Below, one piece after another: positions 18,909 through 25,669 of a stretch of 64,000 nt of DNA. The DNA is from Candidatus Zixiibacteriota bacterium (GTDB taxonomy: Bacteria; Zixibacteria; MSB-5A5; GN15; FEB-12), in the NCBI GenBank assembly GCA_022571845.1, contig JACZXB010000010.1, positions 1 to 64,000 on the forward strand. Reading direction: 5' to 3'. The position numbers were made by a program, and so were the translations under genes. The notes beneath the pieces were generated by a model. The model was not told the origin of the DNA, did no database searches, and was given only the letters and a program-made list of their open reading frames with translations. Every line of letters starts with the position of its first letter. Within the stretch, counting starts at the first letter, position 1.

Positions 18909-19080
18909 CAGCATGGGATTCGAACTACAAATTATTTATTCAACTGTTGGGAAACGTGTTATCTGCGTCTTCCAATAAGACGTATGATATCAGAGATTTA
19001 GGAGGTTGAATACTTCCAAATGTGAGAAGGCAAGGTTCCATGTTACACATTTTGTTCGAATTTTCTTCCCCCGGTGGAGT
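18909..19080. repeat. R1 repeat, copy B
   Basis: Aligned with copies A and C from CAGCATGGGATTCGAAC to TTTTCTTCCCCCGG. Unlike A and C it is not followed by recombinase sequence. On the minus strand it can form a 6-bp hairpin CGTCTT-ATTGG-AAGACG (18966-18982) whose end base pairs differ from those of copy C while pairing and loop are kept. A minus-strand frame from ATG 19203 (87 codons) runs through the copy; I do not call it a gene because most of it is repeat. Confidence 0.8.
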
Positions 19081-19241
19081 GGTTGGGGTAAAGTTTGAGG
19101 TCATTCTTTGAAGCTCGTGTGCTTGAAACGGGGTGAGCATGCTGGGTTTGATGTGGCAGCCAAGTCCAACGCCGATAGGATGCTCTGGCATTTGTATATG
19201 CATTAGCTTTCTTCCTGTTCCTTGGTCAGTTTCTACTACTA

Positions 19242-19919
19242 TCAGTTAGATCGTTTCCCGACTTTCTTTTTGATGTCAACACGGATTCGCCGAGCTGCAT
19301 CCAGGCCAATTGCCAGAGACTGTCGTTCCACTTTTAGAATAATCGGGCCGCCGAAAGGCGCGCGCTCTTTAACCTGCACTTCACTGCCAATCTTCAGTTT
19401 CATACCAGTCAGATACCGCAGGAATTCCGGATCATGGTCGGATACTTCAACCACGCGTCCCGTTTCGCCTTCACTCACTTTGTCGAGTGGTACGCCCCGG
19501 CTTAATGGCAAGTTACCGTCCTTGCCCGGTATAGTATGACCGTGAGGGTCGAATTTCGGCCTTCCCAGAAAATTGAATATGCGTTCAATCAGCTTGTTAC
19601 TTATAACGTGCTCAAGGACCTCGGCGTCCTCGTGTATTTCGTCCCAGGGAATACCCAAAGTCTTGTTTAGAAACAGCTCGATCAGCCTGTGGCGACGAAG
19701 CAAATCTACGGCTATCCTCTGGCCTCGCTTAGTTAGCAGTACACCCTTATAAGGTTTGTGAGATAAATACCCTTCAGCGGCAAGATGTTTCACCATACCG
19801 CTAACCGAAGGCATTTTAACGCCCATACTCCTGGCAATATCCTTGGTAAACACCCGTTGATTCTCGCCCTGGAGCTCATACACCGTCTTTATATAATCCT
19901 CAATGGATCTGCTTAGCAT
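19242..19919 (-). CDS. DtxR/MntR-family metal-dependent repressor
   Basis: 225 residues from ATG 19919, with AAGGAGG eleven bases upstream. Three parts are seen: an N-terminal winged helix (SIEDYIKTVYELQGENQRVFTKDIARSMGVKMPSVSGMVKHLAAEGYL), a dimerisation/metal-binding domain (RHRLIELFLNKTLGIPWDEIHEDAEVLEHVISNKLIERI, with the usual E/H ligands), and a C-terminal FeoA/SH3-like domain (about 150-220). It senses Fe(II) or Mn(II). It is divergent from the multicopper oxidase operon across a 299 bp spacer, which argues that it controls that operon and itself. Confidence 0.92.
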   Translation of the reverse strand: MLSRSIEDYIKTVYELQGENQRVFTKDIARSMGVKMPSVSGMVKHLAAEGYLSHKPYKGVLLTKRGQRIAVDLLRRHRLIELFLNKTLGIPWDEIHEDAEVLEHVISNKLIERIFNFLGRPKFDPHGHTIPGKDGNLPLSRGVPLDKVSEGETGRVVEVSDHDPEFLRYLTGMKLKIGSEVQVKERAPFGGPIILKVERQSLAIGLDAARRIRVDIKKKVGKRSN

Positions 19920-20115
19920 CTAAAATCTCGCCTCCTTAGTCGCCTTATTCTATTAGCATTATACAACGAGTATGCAGGCAGAAAAACGATTTTTTTGGAT
20001 TTGATAATTTAGAATTTATCACCAAATCATGTAGTAAGTCATTTCAGTTATTAGTGTTAGGAGTTTTTTAATAATGATGAAGTCGTGTTACTGGATTTTG
20101 AGAACCAAATAAGTC

Positions 20116-20144
20116 TTGACTATTGCTCAAGATTCGTTTAAGCT
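20116..20144 (+). promoter_or_regulatory. candidate promoter of the metal-oxidase operon
   Basis: TTGACT (20116-20121), a 17-bp spacer and TAAGCT (20139-20144) lie 75 bp before the operon's first ATG. The -35 is good and the -10 poor, which fits a regulated promoter. GAACCTAAC at about 20160-20168, just downstream, contains a CCTAA half-site like those of iron-dependent DtxR boxes, but I see no full palindrome. The rest of 19920-20218 shows no gene. Confidence 0.4.
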
Positions 20145-20218
20145 TCTCTTAAAGTTTGCCGAACCTAACTATTTAAAAAGGAAATCAGAACTTTTTTAAG
20201 GATATTGCGTGCAATTGA

Positions 20219-21397
20219 ATGAAAGCATTCCTCAAGTCAAATTCGCAGATAGTCCCTGCTAAACCTTGCTCAGATGGAAATTCTCGCCGTCGTTTTATGC
20301 GGATTTTTGGAAGCAGCTTAGTCCTGGGAGTCAGTGGATTAGCTTTTTCAAATGTCCATGCGGACCATGGAGCGGCATCGAATAATTCGATACCTAAAAA
20401 GTTGATGGGAGCGGTAGGGCACGTCAAGGGTGACTACCCGGAAAACTTTCTTCGTAGCTTTTATAATGGTCAGCCTGTTCCGGCAGATGCCTTGCGTAAA
20501 GCCCAGTCAGAAAGTTGGCCCAAGCCAGACGTGTTTTACGAAATTCACGCTCTTGATCGCGATATTGAGATCGCTCCCGGAGTAACTTTTCCAGGCTGGA
20601 CATTCGGATTAAAACGAGACGGCGACAGAGAGCTTCCTCTACAGGGTAATATTCCCGGACCGACTCTGCGTTGCCGCGAGGGGCAAGAAATACTCATCAA
20701 GTTTGTAAACCAGGGTTCCCATCCCCATACAATCCACTTCCACGGCATCCACGAATACGAATTTGATGGGGCGATGCCCGAACAGTTTGTCTTCCCGGGA
20801 CAAGAGTTTTGGTATCGCTTTAAGGCTGAACCGTACGGTCTTCACCTATACCATTGTCATTCGAGCCCTCTTAAGCATCACATTCACAAGGGACTCTATG
20901 GAGTCTTCATAGTCGATCCCGATCCCAGATGGGGCACGCGCACCCCGGCTGGCAAAGATTCCAAGGGCAGAATCCAGGAATACGTGATGATGATGAACGG
21001 TTTTGATACTAACTTCGACGGAGAAAATGAAGTTTATAGTGTCAACACGGCTGCTTTCTATTACACCGGAGATCGGGCAATTCCGGTCAGGAAAAACGAA
21101 CTTGTGCGAATCTATCTGGTTAACATAACCGAGTTCGATCCCATTAATTCGTTCCATGTCCATGCAAACTTTTTCTATGCGATCCGCACCGGTACCCGGA
21201 TTATGACCTGGGGGGACGAAGCGCATATGGAAAAAAATAAGCACCAATTCGAATTCACTGACACGGTTATGCTGTGCCAGGGTGAACGTACTATCATTGA
21301 AATGAAGTTTCCTCATGAAGGCATGTATATGTTTCACGCCCACCAGAGTGAGTTTGCCGAATTGGGCTGGATGGCATTTTTCATGGTCGAGGCTTAA
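20219..21397 (+). CDS. two-domain multicopper oxidase, Tat-exported
   Basis: 392 residues. SRRRFMRIFGSSLVLGVSGLAF (22-43) is a twin-arginine signal. Domain 1 has HTIHFHG (H173, H175) and YHCHSSPLKHHIHKGLYG, giving H212, C213, H214 and the downstream His of a type 1 copper site. Domain 2 has NSFHVHANFF (H313, H315) and MFHAHQSEFAELGW (H373, H375), lacking a cysteine. So trinuclear-site ligands come from both domains and the blue copper only from domain 1, as in short, trimer-forming two-domain oxidases. Likely a periplasmic ferroxidase or metal oxidase; an NirK-type nitrite reductase is less likely because the HCH motif replaces the nitrite reductase HCA pattern. First gene of the operon. Confidence 0.88.
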   Translation: MKAFLKSNSQIVPAKPCSDGNSRRRFMRIFGSSLVLGVSGLAFSNVHADHGAASNNSIPKKLMGAVGHVKGDYPENFLRSFYNGQPVPADALRKAQSESWPKPDVFYEIHALDRDIEIAPGVTFPGWTFGLKRDGDRELPLQGNIPGPTLRCREGQEILIKFVNQGSHPHTIHFHGIHEYEFDGAMPEQFVFPGQEFWYRFKAEPYGLHLYHCHSSPLKHHIHKGLYGVFIVDPDPRWGTRTPAGKDSKGRIQEYVMMMNGFDTNFDGENEVYSVNTAAFYYTGDRAIPVRKNELVRIYLVNITEFDPINSFHVHANFFYAIRTGTRIMTWGDEAHMEKNKHQFEFTDTVMLCQGERTIIEMKFPHEGMYMFHAHQSEFAELGWMAFFMVEA

Positions 21398-21399
21398 AA

Positions 21400-22680
21400 A
21401 TGAACAATAGTTCTGAAAACAAACGTGCCAAGGAAAAGGACGATATGGAAAAGGGGGGACCGATGAAAAAGTTCGGACTTTCTACTCTTGTCCTGGCAGT
21501 AATCCCATTCATTCTCCTTGGGGCCTTTGTGGCCTTCCTCCTCCTTCAAGATCCGCGAAACGTGGCAGGTACTAAGTTCCCACCGGTAGAGGAAATCATC
21601 TTCGAGAGGATTGTCATACAAACAGAATCCGAGACACACCCCCACCTTTTTTTGGTCGATATTCGAAACGACGGTCCTGATCCAGTCACAATCGCCCAGG
21701 TGCTGGTCGATGAGGCTTATTGGTATTTTACGATGACACCCGAGGATAAGGTGCTTGGTCGTCTGCAGTCGGGTACTATAGAAATCCCTTACCACTGGAC
21801 TGAAGGAGATGCCTACAATATAACTCTCCTTACTGCAAGTGGAGTTACATTTAGTCACGAGATTTCTGTAGCTGTCGAAAGCCCTCCAATGTCAGTCCGG
21901 TACTTCAGCTTTTTTGCCCTGATAGGTTTCTATGTTGGAATCATTCCGATCATGATTGGCCTGGCCTGGTATCCATCATTACGGCGTCTTACAGTTAACT
22001 CCTGGAACTTTATTCTCTTTCTCACAGTCGGACTGCTTGTTTTCCTGGGCGTCGAAACTGTTGTTGAGGGTCTTGAGATGTCCGGCGGTAACATGGTAGC
22101 CGAAACGTTTCACCCGGCTGTTTTGTTTTTTATCATGCTGATATCAACTTTTCTTCTTCTTCAGGTTTTTACTGAGCGTGGCCGGATCAGTTCCGGGGCA
22201 CAGAGTGAGTCGCGTGGTGGGCTCACGCTCGCCTATATGGTTGCACTCGGGATTGGACTGCACAACTTAGGCGAGGGACTCGCCATCGGCACAGCCTACA
22301 ATACGGGCGAAATTACTCTCGGCGCTACCTTAGTAATAGGTTTCGCGCTTCATAACACAACCGAGGGACTTGCCATCATTTCACCCCTGGCGAGACAGTC
22401 TTTCAATTTTAAACAACTAATTAAACATCTAATCCTTCTTGGCGTTGTAGCTGGTGCCCCAACTATTGTCGGAGCCTGGCTTGGTGGTTTTGCCCCATCT
22501 TTACTTTGGGGGATTATATTCATGGCCATAGGTGCTGGAGCAATCTTCCAAGTTGTCTATTCAATAACTGCACAGATTTTTTCCCGCACGGAGCATCCAA
22601 TTAACCTTTTCAACTTCACCAACTTCGCAGGCTTGATGCTTGGCTTCGGCGTCATGTTCGGCACAGCGCTGATGGTATAG
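21400..22680 (+). CDS. ZIP-family divalent metal transporter with an N-terminal extracytoplasmic domain
   Basis: 426 residues. Residues 1-22 are a charged leader, a TM lies at about 25-49, then residues 50-165 form a beta-rich soluble domain (FERIVIQTESETHPHLFLVDIRNDGPDPVTIAQVLVD). Eight TM-like segments follow from about 168, with the ZIP metal-site signatures HNLGEGLAIG (H288, E292) and HNTTEGLAI (H318, E322). Typical ZIPs are 200-300 residues; the extra domain would face the periplasm next to the multicopper oxidase encoded two bases upstream. It may receive oxidised or reduced metal from the oxidase; direction of transport is inward in known ZIPs. An internal start M22 is possible. Confidence 0.87.
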   Translation: MNNSSENKRAKEKDDMEKGGPMKKFGLSTLVLAVIPFILLGAFVAFLLLQDPRNVAGTKFPPVEEIIFERIVIQTESETHPHLFLVDIRNDGPDPVTIAQVLVDEAYWYFTMTPEDKVLGRLQSGTIEIPYHWTEGDAYNITLLTASGVTFSHEISVAVESPPMSVRYFSFFALIGFYVGIIPIMIGLAWYPSLRRLTVNSWNFILFLTVGLLVFLGVETVVEGLEMSGGNMVAETFHPAVLFFIMLISTFLLLQVFTERGRISSGAQSESRGGLTLAYMVALGIGLHNLGEGLAIGTAYNTGEITLGATLVIGFALHNTTEGLAIISPLARQSFNFKQLIKHLILLGVVAGAPTIVGAWLGGFAPSLLWGIIFMAIGAGAIFQVVYSITAQIFSRTEHPINLFNFTNFAGLMLGFGVMFGTALMV

Positions 22681-22688
22681 AGGTAAAA

Positions 22689-23105
22689 ATGAGTCAAATC
22701 CAAATCAAAAGTCTGCGGTATCTCATTTTAACCGTGTTAATTGCGCTGCCTCTATTCCTTGGAAACATTTTCGCTCAGCGTGGCAGTCTGGAATTTGATA
22801 CCGACGTGCGTACAATCATCATAACTGCAAAAGACATGAAGTTCAACCAAACTAATCCGACTTTCGAAGTGGCCTATGGAGAGAGGGTACGGATCGTATT
22901 CCGAAACGAGGATGCCGGAATGAAGCACGATCTTGTGATTGAAGATCTCGGCCTTCGTACATCCATACTCCAACCAGGGCAGGAAGCGATCATCGAATTT
23001 ATAGCTCAAACAGAGGGTACGTTTGAATACTTTTGTTCTATACACCCCATCTCAATGCGCGGTACTTTGCTAGTGATTAGTTCACCAATGATTGCTGGAA
23101 ATTAG
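22689..23105 (+). CDS. exported cupredoxin (plastocyanin-like)
   Basis: 138 residues with a signal peptide or N-terminal anchor at about 8-30. The mature domain has the blue-copper ligand set H80 (GMKHDLVI), C116, H119 and M123 (YFCSIHPISMRGTLLV). Fold context ITAKDMKFN...FEVAYGERVRIVFRNED is typical. It probably transfers electrons to or from the multicopper oxidase in the periplasm. It starts eight bases after the ZIP stop in the same operon. Confidence 0.9.
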   Translation: MSQIQIKSLRYLILTVLIALPLFLGNIFAQRGSLEFDTDVRTIIITAKDMKFNQTNPTFEVAYGERVRIVFRNEDAGMKHDLVIEDLGLRTSILQPGQEAIIEFIAQTEGTFEYFCSIHPISMRGTLLVISSPMIAGN

Positions 23106-23214
23106 GCTTCCCTTTTCATTTTCGAGGGTAGGTTGCGCGAAACTCTCATCTTTGGCTGGGCAAGAGACAACAATTAGCGATTGTTCACATATTTAAACGG
23201 GGAGAAAACCAACA

Positions 23215-24060
23215 ATGTCCACAATTCCTGTCTTTCGAAACGACAAACTTTTTCGAGTTTCATTCCAAGTAATTACTTTTGTGGTAATTCTCACAGTCGG
23301 TTTATTAAGTTCTCAAGCCGCCGAGGGCAATGAAATAGTTACTGATCGTCCCGATCAAACTGAATCGAGTTCAAGTGTGAAGCCAGGGGTAGTTCAACTC
23401 GAAGTTGGATGGGGCTACACATTCGACAAATCCACAACTGGTTTTGTTCGTACAAACGAATTTCCGCAGACGCTTGTTAGAATCGGGGCGGTTGATGGAT
23501 TCGAGATTCGCTTGATTTGGAATGGCCAGATTTGGGAGAATCCGAGCAGGTCAAAAGACGATAGTTTTAATGGTATAGGTGACGCCGCTGTCGGTGGAAA
23601 ACTTGAATTGTGGCCGGAGAAAGGATCGAGACCTGAAGCTGCGCTACTCTTTGGATTCAGCTTGCCGGTAGGGGACAATCAGTTCACCAGTGGCAAAATA
23701 AATCCGTCTGCGCGGATGAGTTTCGCCAATAAATTAACAGATATTTTATCGCTGGGCTACAATTTCGGGTTCACTTCTGTGTCGATGGAGACACTCCCCG
23801 GGCAATCACAGACCGATTATTACGGACAATATACAATAGCCTTGGGAGCCAGTCTGAGCGATAAGATAGGAGCGTTCGTGGAACTGTTTGGTGACATTCG
23901 AATTGATGATAGCGATTTACCACAACATTCCGCTGATGGCGGATTGACGTTCTTGGTAAAAGAAAATATTCAATTTGATCTTGCTGGCGGCTTTGGAATT
24001 TCTAGCTCATCGTCCGATTGGATTCTTCTGAGTGGAATTTCTATAAGGTTCCCTGATTAG
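23215..24060 (+). CDS. putative outer-membrane channel (phenol/MetA-degradation family type)
   Basis: 281 residues: a long signal peptide (to about residue 38, SSQAAEG), then EIVTDRPDQTESSSSVKPGVVQLEVGWGYTF, the hallmark opening of the PF13557 outer-membrane beta-barrel family. Repeated amphipathic strands (FEIRLIWNGQ, GIGDAAVGGKLEL, EAALLFGFSLPVG, ADGGLTFLVKENIQFDLAGGFGIS) end with the C-terminal aromatic strand ISIRFPD. It would provide outer-membrane passage for this metal cluster. GGGGAG lies 10 bases upstream of the ATG and the gene is 109 bp after the cupredoxin gene. Confidence 0.8.
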   Translation: MSTIPVFRNDKLFRVSFQVITFVVILTVGLLSSQAAEGNEIVTDRPDQTESSSSVKPGVVQLEVGWGYTFDKSTTGFVRTNEFPQTLVRIGAVDGFEIRLIWNGQIWENPSRSKDDSFNGIGDAAVGGKLELWPEKGSRPEAALLFGFSLPVGDNQFTSGKINPSARMSFANKLTDILSLGYNFGFTSVSMETLPGQSQTDYYGQYTIALGASLSDKIGAFVELFGDIRIDDSDLPQHSADGGLTFLVKENIQFDLAGGFGISSSSSDWILLSGISIRFPD

Positions 24061-24187
24061 CGGGGCGCAGCAAGTCTTTCAGTTTTATCTTCAGGTCGGG
24101 TGGCCCACCTTTCAGATGGTTTCTCATCTGGCTATCCTGTTAAAACAAGATTCAATCGTTACAAAAAAATCTAACCAATTCAATAAA

Positions 24188-24363
24188 GCGGGGAGCATGG
24201 GATTCGAACTGCAAATTATTTATTCAATTATTGAAAACCTATTACCTGTGTCTACCAATTAGACATATGATATCAGAGATTTAGGAGGTTGAATACTTCC
24301 AAATGTGAGAAGGCAAGGTTCCATATTACTGATTTAGTTCGAATTTTCTCCCCCCGGGGGGTG
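24188..24363. repeat. R1 repeat, copy C
   Basis: It starts GCGGGGAGCATGGGATTCGA and ends TTTTCTCCCCCCGGGGGGTG, which contains a perfect 12-bp palindrome CCCCCCGGGGGG (24350-24361). On the minus strand it can fold TGTCTA-ATTGG-TAGACA (24249-24265). The left end resembles the 3' end of the neighbouring tRNA-Ser (shared GGGATTCGAAC). The copy abuts the stop of the intact recombinase gene. No other feature is seen in 24061-24187. Confidence 0.85.
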
Positions 24364-24374
24364 GTCTCCCGCTT

Positions 24375-25472
24375 CTAAAACGACAGCTTATTCACAGCAT
24401 CAGCGAGATGATCGGGTGCCAAATGGGCGTATATCATTGTGGTTTGGATATCAGAGTGACCCATAAGCTTCATAACGGTCGGAAGATCCACCCCACTCAT
24501 TACCAACTGACTGGCAAATGTATGTCTGAGTGTATGTAGTTTAGTCAGCCCCTCTATGTCTGCTTCTCTTGCTATGCGAATTAGTCTCTCTCGGAGTTTA
24601 GTCCTTATCATTCCCCCGGCGCCATCAGGAAAAACAAAATTACTCTTAATCGATTTGTCATTACTTACTTTCAATTCAGTCAGCAGTTTGTGTAACTTAT
24701 CACTAATTGGTATTTCTCTCTCTCCTGTCTTGGGCTGCCAGAACTCTTTGCGGCGTATTTTGATCTTACAACGCTTCATATCTACATCGTCCCATTCAAG
24801 ATTCTCCAATTCTGCTTTGCGCATTCCAGTGTTCAAGAAGGTAAAGTATATAGGATAAAGATCAGGTGAACAGGCATTCAAGAATTTCGATATCTCTTTA
24901 TCTGATAGAAACCTGACCGGTTTTGAATCATTAACTTTTAGCGGTTTCACTTTATTGGTCGGGTTCTCTTTAAGGTAGCCCCACTTGATAGCGAGATTGA
25001 ACATCGTCTTTAGAGCACCTATTTCAAAGTTTATTGTATGTGCCCTGGCACCTTTGCGGGTGTGACGGTTTACGTCATTATCAGATTCAACTGGTTTACC
25101 GTTCGCGTTTACCCAACTGTCCTTGCGGAAGACTTTGTACAGATCAAGAGTTTTAGGAGTTACCTGAGAAAGAAATCCGATGTCATCAACTTTCTTAGCG
25201 AAATGCTTGAAATGGTCAATCACTGCCCGATAGCGATTGCAAGTGGAAGGCTGATGATTGGCTCGAGAGTAATCTAAAAACTGTTCAAAGAACTTATCAA
25301 TGAAGATATCGTTTTGAGCAAACCCAAATTCATTACGTGCTATCTTTACTTCTGCATCCTGTAGTGCTAATTGTGCAATCTTCTTGGCTGGACCAATACG
25401 TTTACGTATTCGCCTGCCGTTAGCCCTGACATCGATATACCAGACTCTGCCTCTTTTGAAAATAGCGCCCAT
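24375..25472 (-). CDS. tyrosine recombinase / integrase
   Basis: 365 residues. An N-terminal AP2-like arm-binding region (GAIFKRGRVWYIDVRANGRRIRKRIG), a SAM-like core-binding domain (about 58-175) and a catalytic domain are present. The active site is complete: R218 (TGMRKAEL), K248 (QPKTGEREIP), H313 and R316 (LHTLRHTF), H339 (MGHS) and Y348 (MIYAHL). The gene starts 107 bp from the 3' end of tRNA-Ser(GCU), the usual location for a tRNA-targeting integrase. It ends at repeat R1-C. It has a C-terminal fragment paralogue at 17168. Likely still functional. Confidence 0.95.
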   Translation of the reverse strand: MGAIFKRGRVWYIDVRANGRRIRKRIGPAKKIAQLALQDAEVKIARNEFGFAQNDIFIDKFFEQFLDYSRANHQPSTCNRYRAVIDHFKHFAKKVDDIGFLSQVTPKTLDLYKVFRKDSWVNANGKPVESDNDVNRHTRKGARAHTINFEIGALKTMFNLAIKWGYLKENPTNKVKPLKVNDSKPVRFLSDKEISKFLNACSPDLYPIYFTFLNTGMRKAELENLEWDDVDMKRCKIKIRRKEFWQPKTGEREIPISDKLHKLLTELKVSNDKSIKSNFVFPDGAGGMIRTKLRERLIRIAREADIEGLTKLHTLRHTFASQLVMSGVDLPTVMKLMGHSDIQTTMIYAHLAPDHLADAVNKLSF

Positions 25473-25579
25473 AACTGTCCTCCTGTGGTCACAATATGGT
25501 CACAGTCAAGTGATAGAAATATACTATATGAGATAAGTTATTGTCAAGTAGAAAGATAAGGATGCATCGAAAAATCAAG

Positions 25580-25669
25580 CGGAGAGGCAGGGATTCGAAC
25601 CCTGGATAGAGATAAACACCCTATAACGGATTAGCAATCCGCCGCCTTCAGCCGCTCGGCCACCTCTCC
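25580..25669 (-). tRNA. tRNA-Ser(GCU)
   Basis: Reverse strand: acceptor GGAGAGG (25669-25663) pairs with CCTCTCC, D-arm with GCCGAGCGGCTGAAGGC, anticodon arm CGGATTGCTAATCCG with anticodon GCT, a long variable arm, T-arm CAGGG-TTCGAAT-CCCTG and discriminator G73. CCA is not encoded. All class II serine features agree. The 3' end points to the integrase gene at 24375-25472, so it is the probable attachment site of the island. The acceptor/T-arm segment resembles the ends of the R1 repeats. Confidence 0.97.

Follow-up and report, generated by a model that had tools for sequence, protein, structure and literature searches.

The window analysed here, a 64,000-nucleotide stretch of a Candidatus Zixiibacteriota genome, carries at positions 19242-24060 a set of five genes. 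Open reading frame (ORF) calls place a regulator gene on the minus strand, divergent from co-oriented genes for a multicopper oxidase (MCO), a ZIP transporter, a cupredoxin and an outer-membrane beta-barrel protein. Pfam identified Fe_dep_repress, Fe_dep_repr_C and FeoA in the regulator, Cu-oxidase_3 and Cu-oxidase_2 in the oxidase, and Zip, Cupredoxin_1 and Phenol_MetA_deg in the other three proteins. A sequence-only reading of the window had described four ordered genes diverging from a DtxR-superfamily regulator, which the ORF list and Pfam families bear out, and its view of a single module spanning outer membrane, periplasm and inner membrane is supported. For comparison within the phylum we used 132 genomes, among them the window genome (G000) and a genome of the same genus (G033). 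The features of the set are as follows.

19242..19919, minus strand: MntR/DtxR-superfamily regulator with FeoA domain (assigned from Pfam, closest PDB relatives and ligand alignment)
19920..20218, no strand: divergent promoter region, 87.7% identical to G033, below gene identity
20137..20153, no strand: candidate operator TTTAAGCTTCTCTTAAA; no other 6-bp inverted repeat is exactly common to the window promoter and G033
20219..21397, plus strand: two-domain MCO, type C (Pfam, alignment, type 1 copper in domain 1, Tat signal)
21463..22680, plus strand: ZIP transporter carrying an anchor helix and an extracytoplasmic Ig-like domain at its N terminus (reading frame open from 21400, start probably at 21463)
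22689..23105, plus strand: cupredoxin (Cupredoxin_1) with signal peptide and type-1 motif CSIHPISM
23215..24060, plus strand: outer-membrane beta-barrel of the Phenol_MetA_deg family (PF13557; Pfam), with the same gene in the same place in two Acidobacteriota loci, L069 and L074

The sequence of the MCO places it in the type C two-domain class, with both copper sites predicted to be complete. Its type 1 ligands (C213, H221 and axial L226) lie in domain 1, whilst Ala374 occupies the corresponding cysteine place in domain 2, between H373 and H375, in agreement with the earlier proposal that blue copper is confined to domain 1. The four HxH motifs (eight histidines) of the trinuclear site were invariant in 92 homologues, and the twin arginines of the Tat signal (23-24) were kept in 89 and 90 of them. 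A close MCO was found only in G000 and G033 among the phylum genomes; these two were 95% identical to each other and all other matches in the phylum were at or below 45% identity. In the tree, the window MCO sat on a long branch within a supported 24-row set containing cupredoxin-linked bacterial members. A separate observation concerns a Planctomycetota locus (L073, 2223-3911), in which the MCO has a fused C-terminal AhpC/TSA redoxin domain.

The Zip domain scored 36.4 bits against a cut-off of 35.1, a match covering the C-terminal half of the protein only. The remainder comprises an anchor helix and a seven-stranded Ig-like domain (residues 67-155), followed by a normal eight-helix core; the Ig-like extension was also present in homologues, and the description of a domain-extended ZIP stands. 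BbZIP was the best structural match (E 1e-6). The eight-helix core is shared with BbZIP and ZupT, but these lack the Ig-like domain and read HNLPEG in TM4 where the window protein reads HNLGEG. The His/Asn/Glu metal-site residues of TM4 and TM5 were retained, with H288, E292, H318, N319 and E322 invariant in 41 sequences and N289 nearly so. With its domain above the cut-off, its eight-helix fold and its TM4/TM5 metal site, the protein is a member of ZIP family PF02535. Its true start is probably 21463, because the frame 5' of MKKFG is disrupted in G033 and a strong ribosome-binding site, AAAGGGGGGA, lies at 21450-21459 ahead of the ATG. Of the gaps previously given as 2, 8 and 109 bp, which agree with the ORF positions, the MCO-ZIP gap would then be 65 bp.

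An orthologue of the cupredoxin, 45% identical, was found in the same position of a Planctomycetota locus. The last gene had been called an outer-membrane channel; its family supports a beta-barrel, whereas 'channel' goes beyond the family match. Single-sequence structure prediction of this protein failed (pLDDT 32).

Pairing of oxidase and transporter

We scanned one genome per species across 84,980 species for relatives of the MCO and kept the best 80 of 582. The extended ZIP was the next gene after the MCO in 79/79 loci that were not cut, the 80th ending at a contig edge; as the alignment was seeded largely from ZIP-linked loci, the count applies to near relatives and not to type C MCOs as a whole. 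The neighbourhood search thus ran against the possibility, raised with the original proposal, that no other genome pairs these genes. Distance matrices of MCO and ZIP were strongly correlated (Mantel r 0.80, null maximum 0.10), and these comparisons indicate a true pair whose members evolve together. The 80 loci came from Acidobacteriota, Planctomycetota, Armatimonadota, Gemmatimonadota, Chloroflexota, Actinomycetota, Bacillota, Pseudomonadota, Methylomirabilota, Poribacteria, Fraserbacteria and one Aenigmatarchaeota metagenome-assembled genome, a kind of assembly that can be misbinned. Judged from its sequence distribution, at least a dozen lineages of bacteria and archaea contain the pair. 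Pfam scans of the other genes flanking MCO-ZIP loci returned mixed families with no common theme.

The window order, a regulator divergent from MCO-ZIP-cupredoxin-barrel, was repeated in L069 and L074. Searches with tblastn using both ZIP and MCO also recovered the pair on plasmids of Deinococcus, Rubrobacter, Stanieria, Gloeocapsa, Cytobacillus, Shinella, Sinorhizobium, Ensifer, Sulfitobacter, Rhodococcus and Arthrobacter, and of the archaea Halomontanus and Haloprofundus, the last with the order regulator-MCO-ZIP-plastocyanin. On Rhodococcus and Gloeocapsa plasmids (L051, L052) the cupredoxin's place after the ZIP is taken by a Rieske (2Fe-2S) protein, and in Rubrobacter (L046) one lies two genes further downstream.

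The solved structure 3GDC matched the window MCO at 255 bits, and the aligned stretch is contained exactly in the MCO of Arthrobacter sp. FB24 plasmid 1. As in the window, the same extended ZIP comes after this type C MCO and a divergent metal-dependent regulator before it; the host differs in being Gram-positive, and cupredoxin and barrel are not adjacent there. By this sequence match, 3GDC can be identified as the oxidase member of such a pair.

Oxidase-ZIP pairing is not a new idea, having been published for ammonia-oxidising archaea (AOA; PMC7785015, PMC5767755). In the passages of those papers that treat it, MCO1 and a ZIP permease (NVIE_000600/NVIE_000590) are adjacent genes in most AOA genomes, with copper uptake or hydroxylamine oxidation as proposed roles. 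As described there, the AOA pair resembles ours in setting a two-domain MCO beside a ZIP-family permease but differs in that the same passages mention neither MntR nor cupredoxin nor barrel as its neighbour. A search of the open-licence literature for a bacterial MCO-ZIP-MntR operon, or for an experimental test of the bacterial role, returned nothing relevant.

The AOA work also frames one alternative, in which the MCO would convert Cu(I) to Cu(II), for detoxification or as a supply for the ZIP. The relevant passage reports higher levels of AOA MCO1 and its neighbouring permease when copper is limiting (PMC7785015), and neighbours of the plasmid-borne pairs include CopZ, PCuAC, SCO and P-type ATPases. 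Chaperones near an MCO may, however, serve only its maturation, and about half of the loci have manganese-type regulators, not copper sensors, with MntH in or near some of the operons. Copper handling is in our view unlikely.

Regulator type and promoter sites

The metal-site residues of the window regulator, from the ligand alignment, are D8, K11, H77, H96, E100, E103 and H104, and its closest solved relatives (5zr4, 8pvt, SloR and ScaR) are of the MntR, SloR and ScaR types. D8 and E100, the equivalents of Asp8 and Glu99, make it an MntR-type protein. It does not belong with DtxR/IdeR, in which Met10 and Cys102 stand where it has Asp and Glu, and it carries Lys11, as does DR2539, in place of the Glu11 of the strictly Mn-selective MntR of B. 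subtilis and E. coli. In the 45 regulators recovered from the vicinity of MCO-ZIP pairs, residue 8 was always Asp or Asn and the DtxR-Cys102 position always Glu or Asp, Glu105/His106 (DtxR numbering) were invariant, and the Met10/Cys102 iron-site pair of DtxR/IdeR occurred in 0/45. Two subtypes were apparent, a short MntR with D8/E11 (7 loci) and a Lys11 type (38 loci), which in the window additionally carries the FeoA domain. Two MntR-type regulators (L103, 5435-6910; L113, 2370-3848) have about 250 extra C-terminal residues matching no Pfam family, which could reflect over-long ORFs.

DR2539 of Deinococcus radiodurans is an MntH repressor responding to Mn(II) and Fe(II) (PMC3327659). It shares with the window regulator a Lys at position 11 (MntR numbering) and a His at position 98 (DtxR numbering), and it represses a manganese importer, but that importer is an NRAMP protein and the system has no oxidase (PMC3327659). 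The ligand residues therefore favour manganese as the regulatory metal, with iron as a further candidate because a DR2539-type regulator responds to both (PMC3327659).

Links to manganese were also evident in gene neighbourhoods. An MntR-type gene adjoined MCO-ZIP in 37/80 loci, and MntH (NRAMP) was in or near the operon in seven (L045, L046, L085, L097, L126, L131 and L145), lying directly 3' of the ZIP in L097 and L131. In Deinococcus D7000, MntH and its MntR are divergent from MCO-ZIP. The tightest such arrangement seen, a short MntR divergent from MCO-ZIP-NRAMP, is on the Aenigmatarchaeota contig (L131), the binning of which is uncertain.

Two palindromes were concentrated in the 38 kb of promoter regions of MCO-ZIP loci: TTTTGA-N4-TCAAAA, with 13 sites against 0 in 1.13 Mb elsewhere, and ATAGC-N4-GCTAT, with 5 against 0, although the loci sharing each palindrome are related and the sites are not independent events. 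The second corresponds to the central part of the MntR box of E. coli. For the candidate operator of the window, a slightly longer form of the TTTAAGCTTCTCTTAAA pattern occurred 3 times per genome and is weak alone; TTTAAG-N5-CTTAAA was set aside as a regulon motif, at 3 sites per genome.

These data bear on the eukaryotic-type ferroxidase-permease logic first proposed for the set, in which the MCO would oxidise Fe(II) and the ZIP import iron. The oxidase-permease pair is real and shares its layout with Fet3-Ftr1, Fe(II) can be used by DR2539-type regulators (PMC3327659), and the window regulator has a FeoA domain. Iron is nevertheless weakened by the manganese-type regulator site, including the absence of the iron-site pair from all 45 regulators, and by the E. 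coli-type MntR boxes and MntH neighbours of some loci. Both G000 and G033 already possess FeoB, and ZIPs generally carry divalent metal, so prior oxidation of iron would bring no obvious gain. Iron uptake by this route appears improbable, and membership of the Fet3-Ftr1 system was rejected, given a ZIP in place of Ftr1, an MCO of two domains and a regulator of the manganese and not the iron type.

The transferable block and the tRNA-Ser locus

The gene set lies within a block flanked by copies of a repeat, R1, and next to an integrase. The features of this region are as follows.

19126..24203, no strand: 5.08-kb block, mobile as a whole; its 5078-bp alignment to G033:C5, at another genomic location, shows 94.1% identity
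16987-17193: further R1 copy, found by sequence comparison
18910..19083, plus strand: R1 copy b, left flank, 89% identical to R1c
24194..24365, plus strand: R1 copy c, right flank, beside the integrase 3' end; also kept in G033 and G032, where the module is absent from this site
24375..25472, minus strand: tyrosine integrase, assigned by sequence, between R1c and tRNA-Ser
25579..25669, minus strand: tRNA-Ser (gct)

Similarity of the block to G033:C5 drops sharply at both ends, 19126 and 24203, against two R1 copies. Since the 94% identical copy sits at a different locus in G033, whose own R1/tRNA-Ser site is syntenic and conserved but empty of the block, the alignment indicates that the block is transferable as a unit. 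Block identity was 94% versus 87% for a 12-kb core stretch of the same two genomes. Transferability had originally been deduced from the flanking R1 copies; these are real, as is the predicted mobility of the block, but R1 stays behind and does not travel. An R1-bounded cassette was rejected, as the G033 copy has no flanking R1 and the R1 of that genome is at the tRNA-Ser locus. By the same comparison R1 is a feature of the integrase locus, not of the cargo.

The tRNA-Ser gene was dismissed as the parent of R1, an 11-bp T-loop match (GGGATTCGAAC) being insufficient, and carriage by phage was rejected with 0 ZIP matches in 50,697 phage records. A candidate short core, CGGGG..GAGCATG, is common to both block ends, and one of the three R1 copies carries a decayed integrase end. 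In two genomes of the same genus the tRNA-Ser/R1 locus is conserved and holds different cargo; it looks like an integration hotspot.

A proposed manganese-responsive uptake module

We consider, at roughly even odds (about 0.5), that the set is a mobile module for metal acquisition, controlled mainly by manganese status. Manganese is favoured because of the Mn-type regulators, the MntH neighbours, the promoter palindromes and the MCO-ZIP pairing. Also in its favour, searches of G033 for NRAMP and MntA/ZnuA found none, and the module regulator is the only DtxR-family member of that genome. Several observations weigh on the other side. G000 has a second manganese system, an MntR-MntABC operon on C4; about half of the MCO-ZIP loci are without an adjacent MntR; many plasmid copies of the pair are within copper or mercury islands; DR2539, which has the same K11 subtype with His at DtxR-98, responds to Fe(II) as well as to Mn(II) (PMC3327659); and the window promoter has no known MntR box, with neither TTTTGA-N4-TCAAAA nor ATAGC-N4-GCTAT present. 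The C4 operon (L162, 1953-8010) encodes MntR, a CxxCH outer-membrane-type protein, MntA, an ATPase and two permeases, the first permease being fused to a DtxR-family domain.

We infer what metal is carried, what the oxidase acts on and what the barrel does as follows. At low cytoplasmic Mn(II) the regulator would leave the promoter; a divalent metal, Mn(II) or perhaps Fe(II), would cross the outer membrane, perhaps aided by the barrel, and the ZIP would import it across the inner membrane. The periplasmic oxidase, with the cupredoxin as electron partner, would act on the metal, its competitor or its ligand, and may thereby adjust the substrate or the selectivity of a Mn(II)-responsive uptake module. 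In the simplest form, Fe(II) or Cu(I) would be oxidised so that the ZIP takes Mn(II) selectively.

Bacterial manganese oxidases include MCOs, and the manganese-type regulator would suit an enzyme making Mn(III/IV) from Mn(II) as a means of detoxification or storage, while the ZIP controlled the manganese of the cytoplasm. To our knowledge, however, the known Mn-oxidising MCOs are larger, multi-domain proteins, and we regard this explanation as very unlikely.

The proposed manganese-responsive uptake can be extended, tentatively and with considerable doubt, to a widely transferred manganese-acquisition system of bacteria and archaea, in which the Tat-exported copper oxidase would remove Fe(II) or Cu(I) and in this way serve as selectivity gate for a ZIP that has its own docking domain. 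The two would then form an oxidase-permease pair for manganese. The nearest 79 testable relatives are all paired and extend over many bacterial phyla, archaea and conjugative plasmids. The link to MntR makes the function of the module testable and the crystal structure 3GDC gains a likely physiological partner, whilst manganese offers an independent prediction for the debated role of the MCO1-ZIP pair of AOA.

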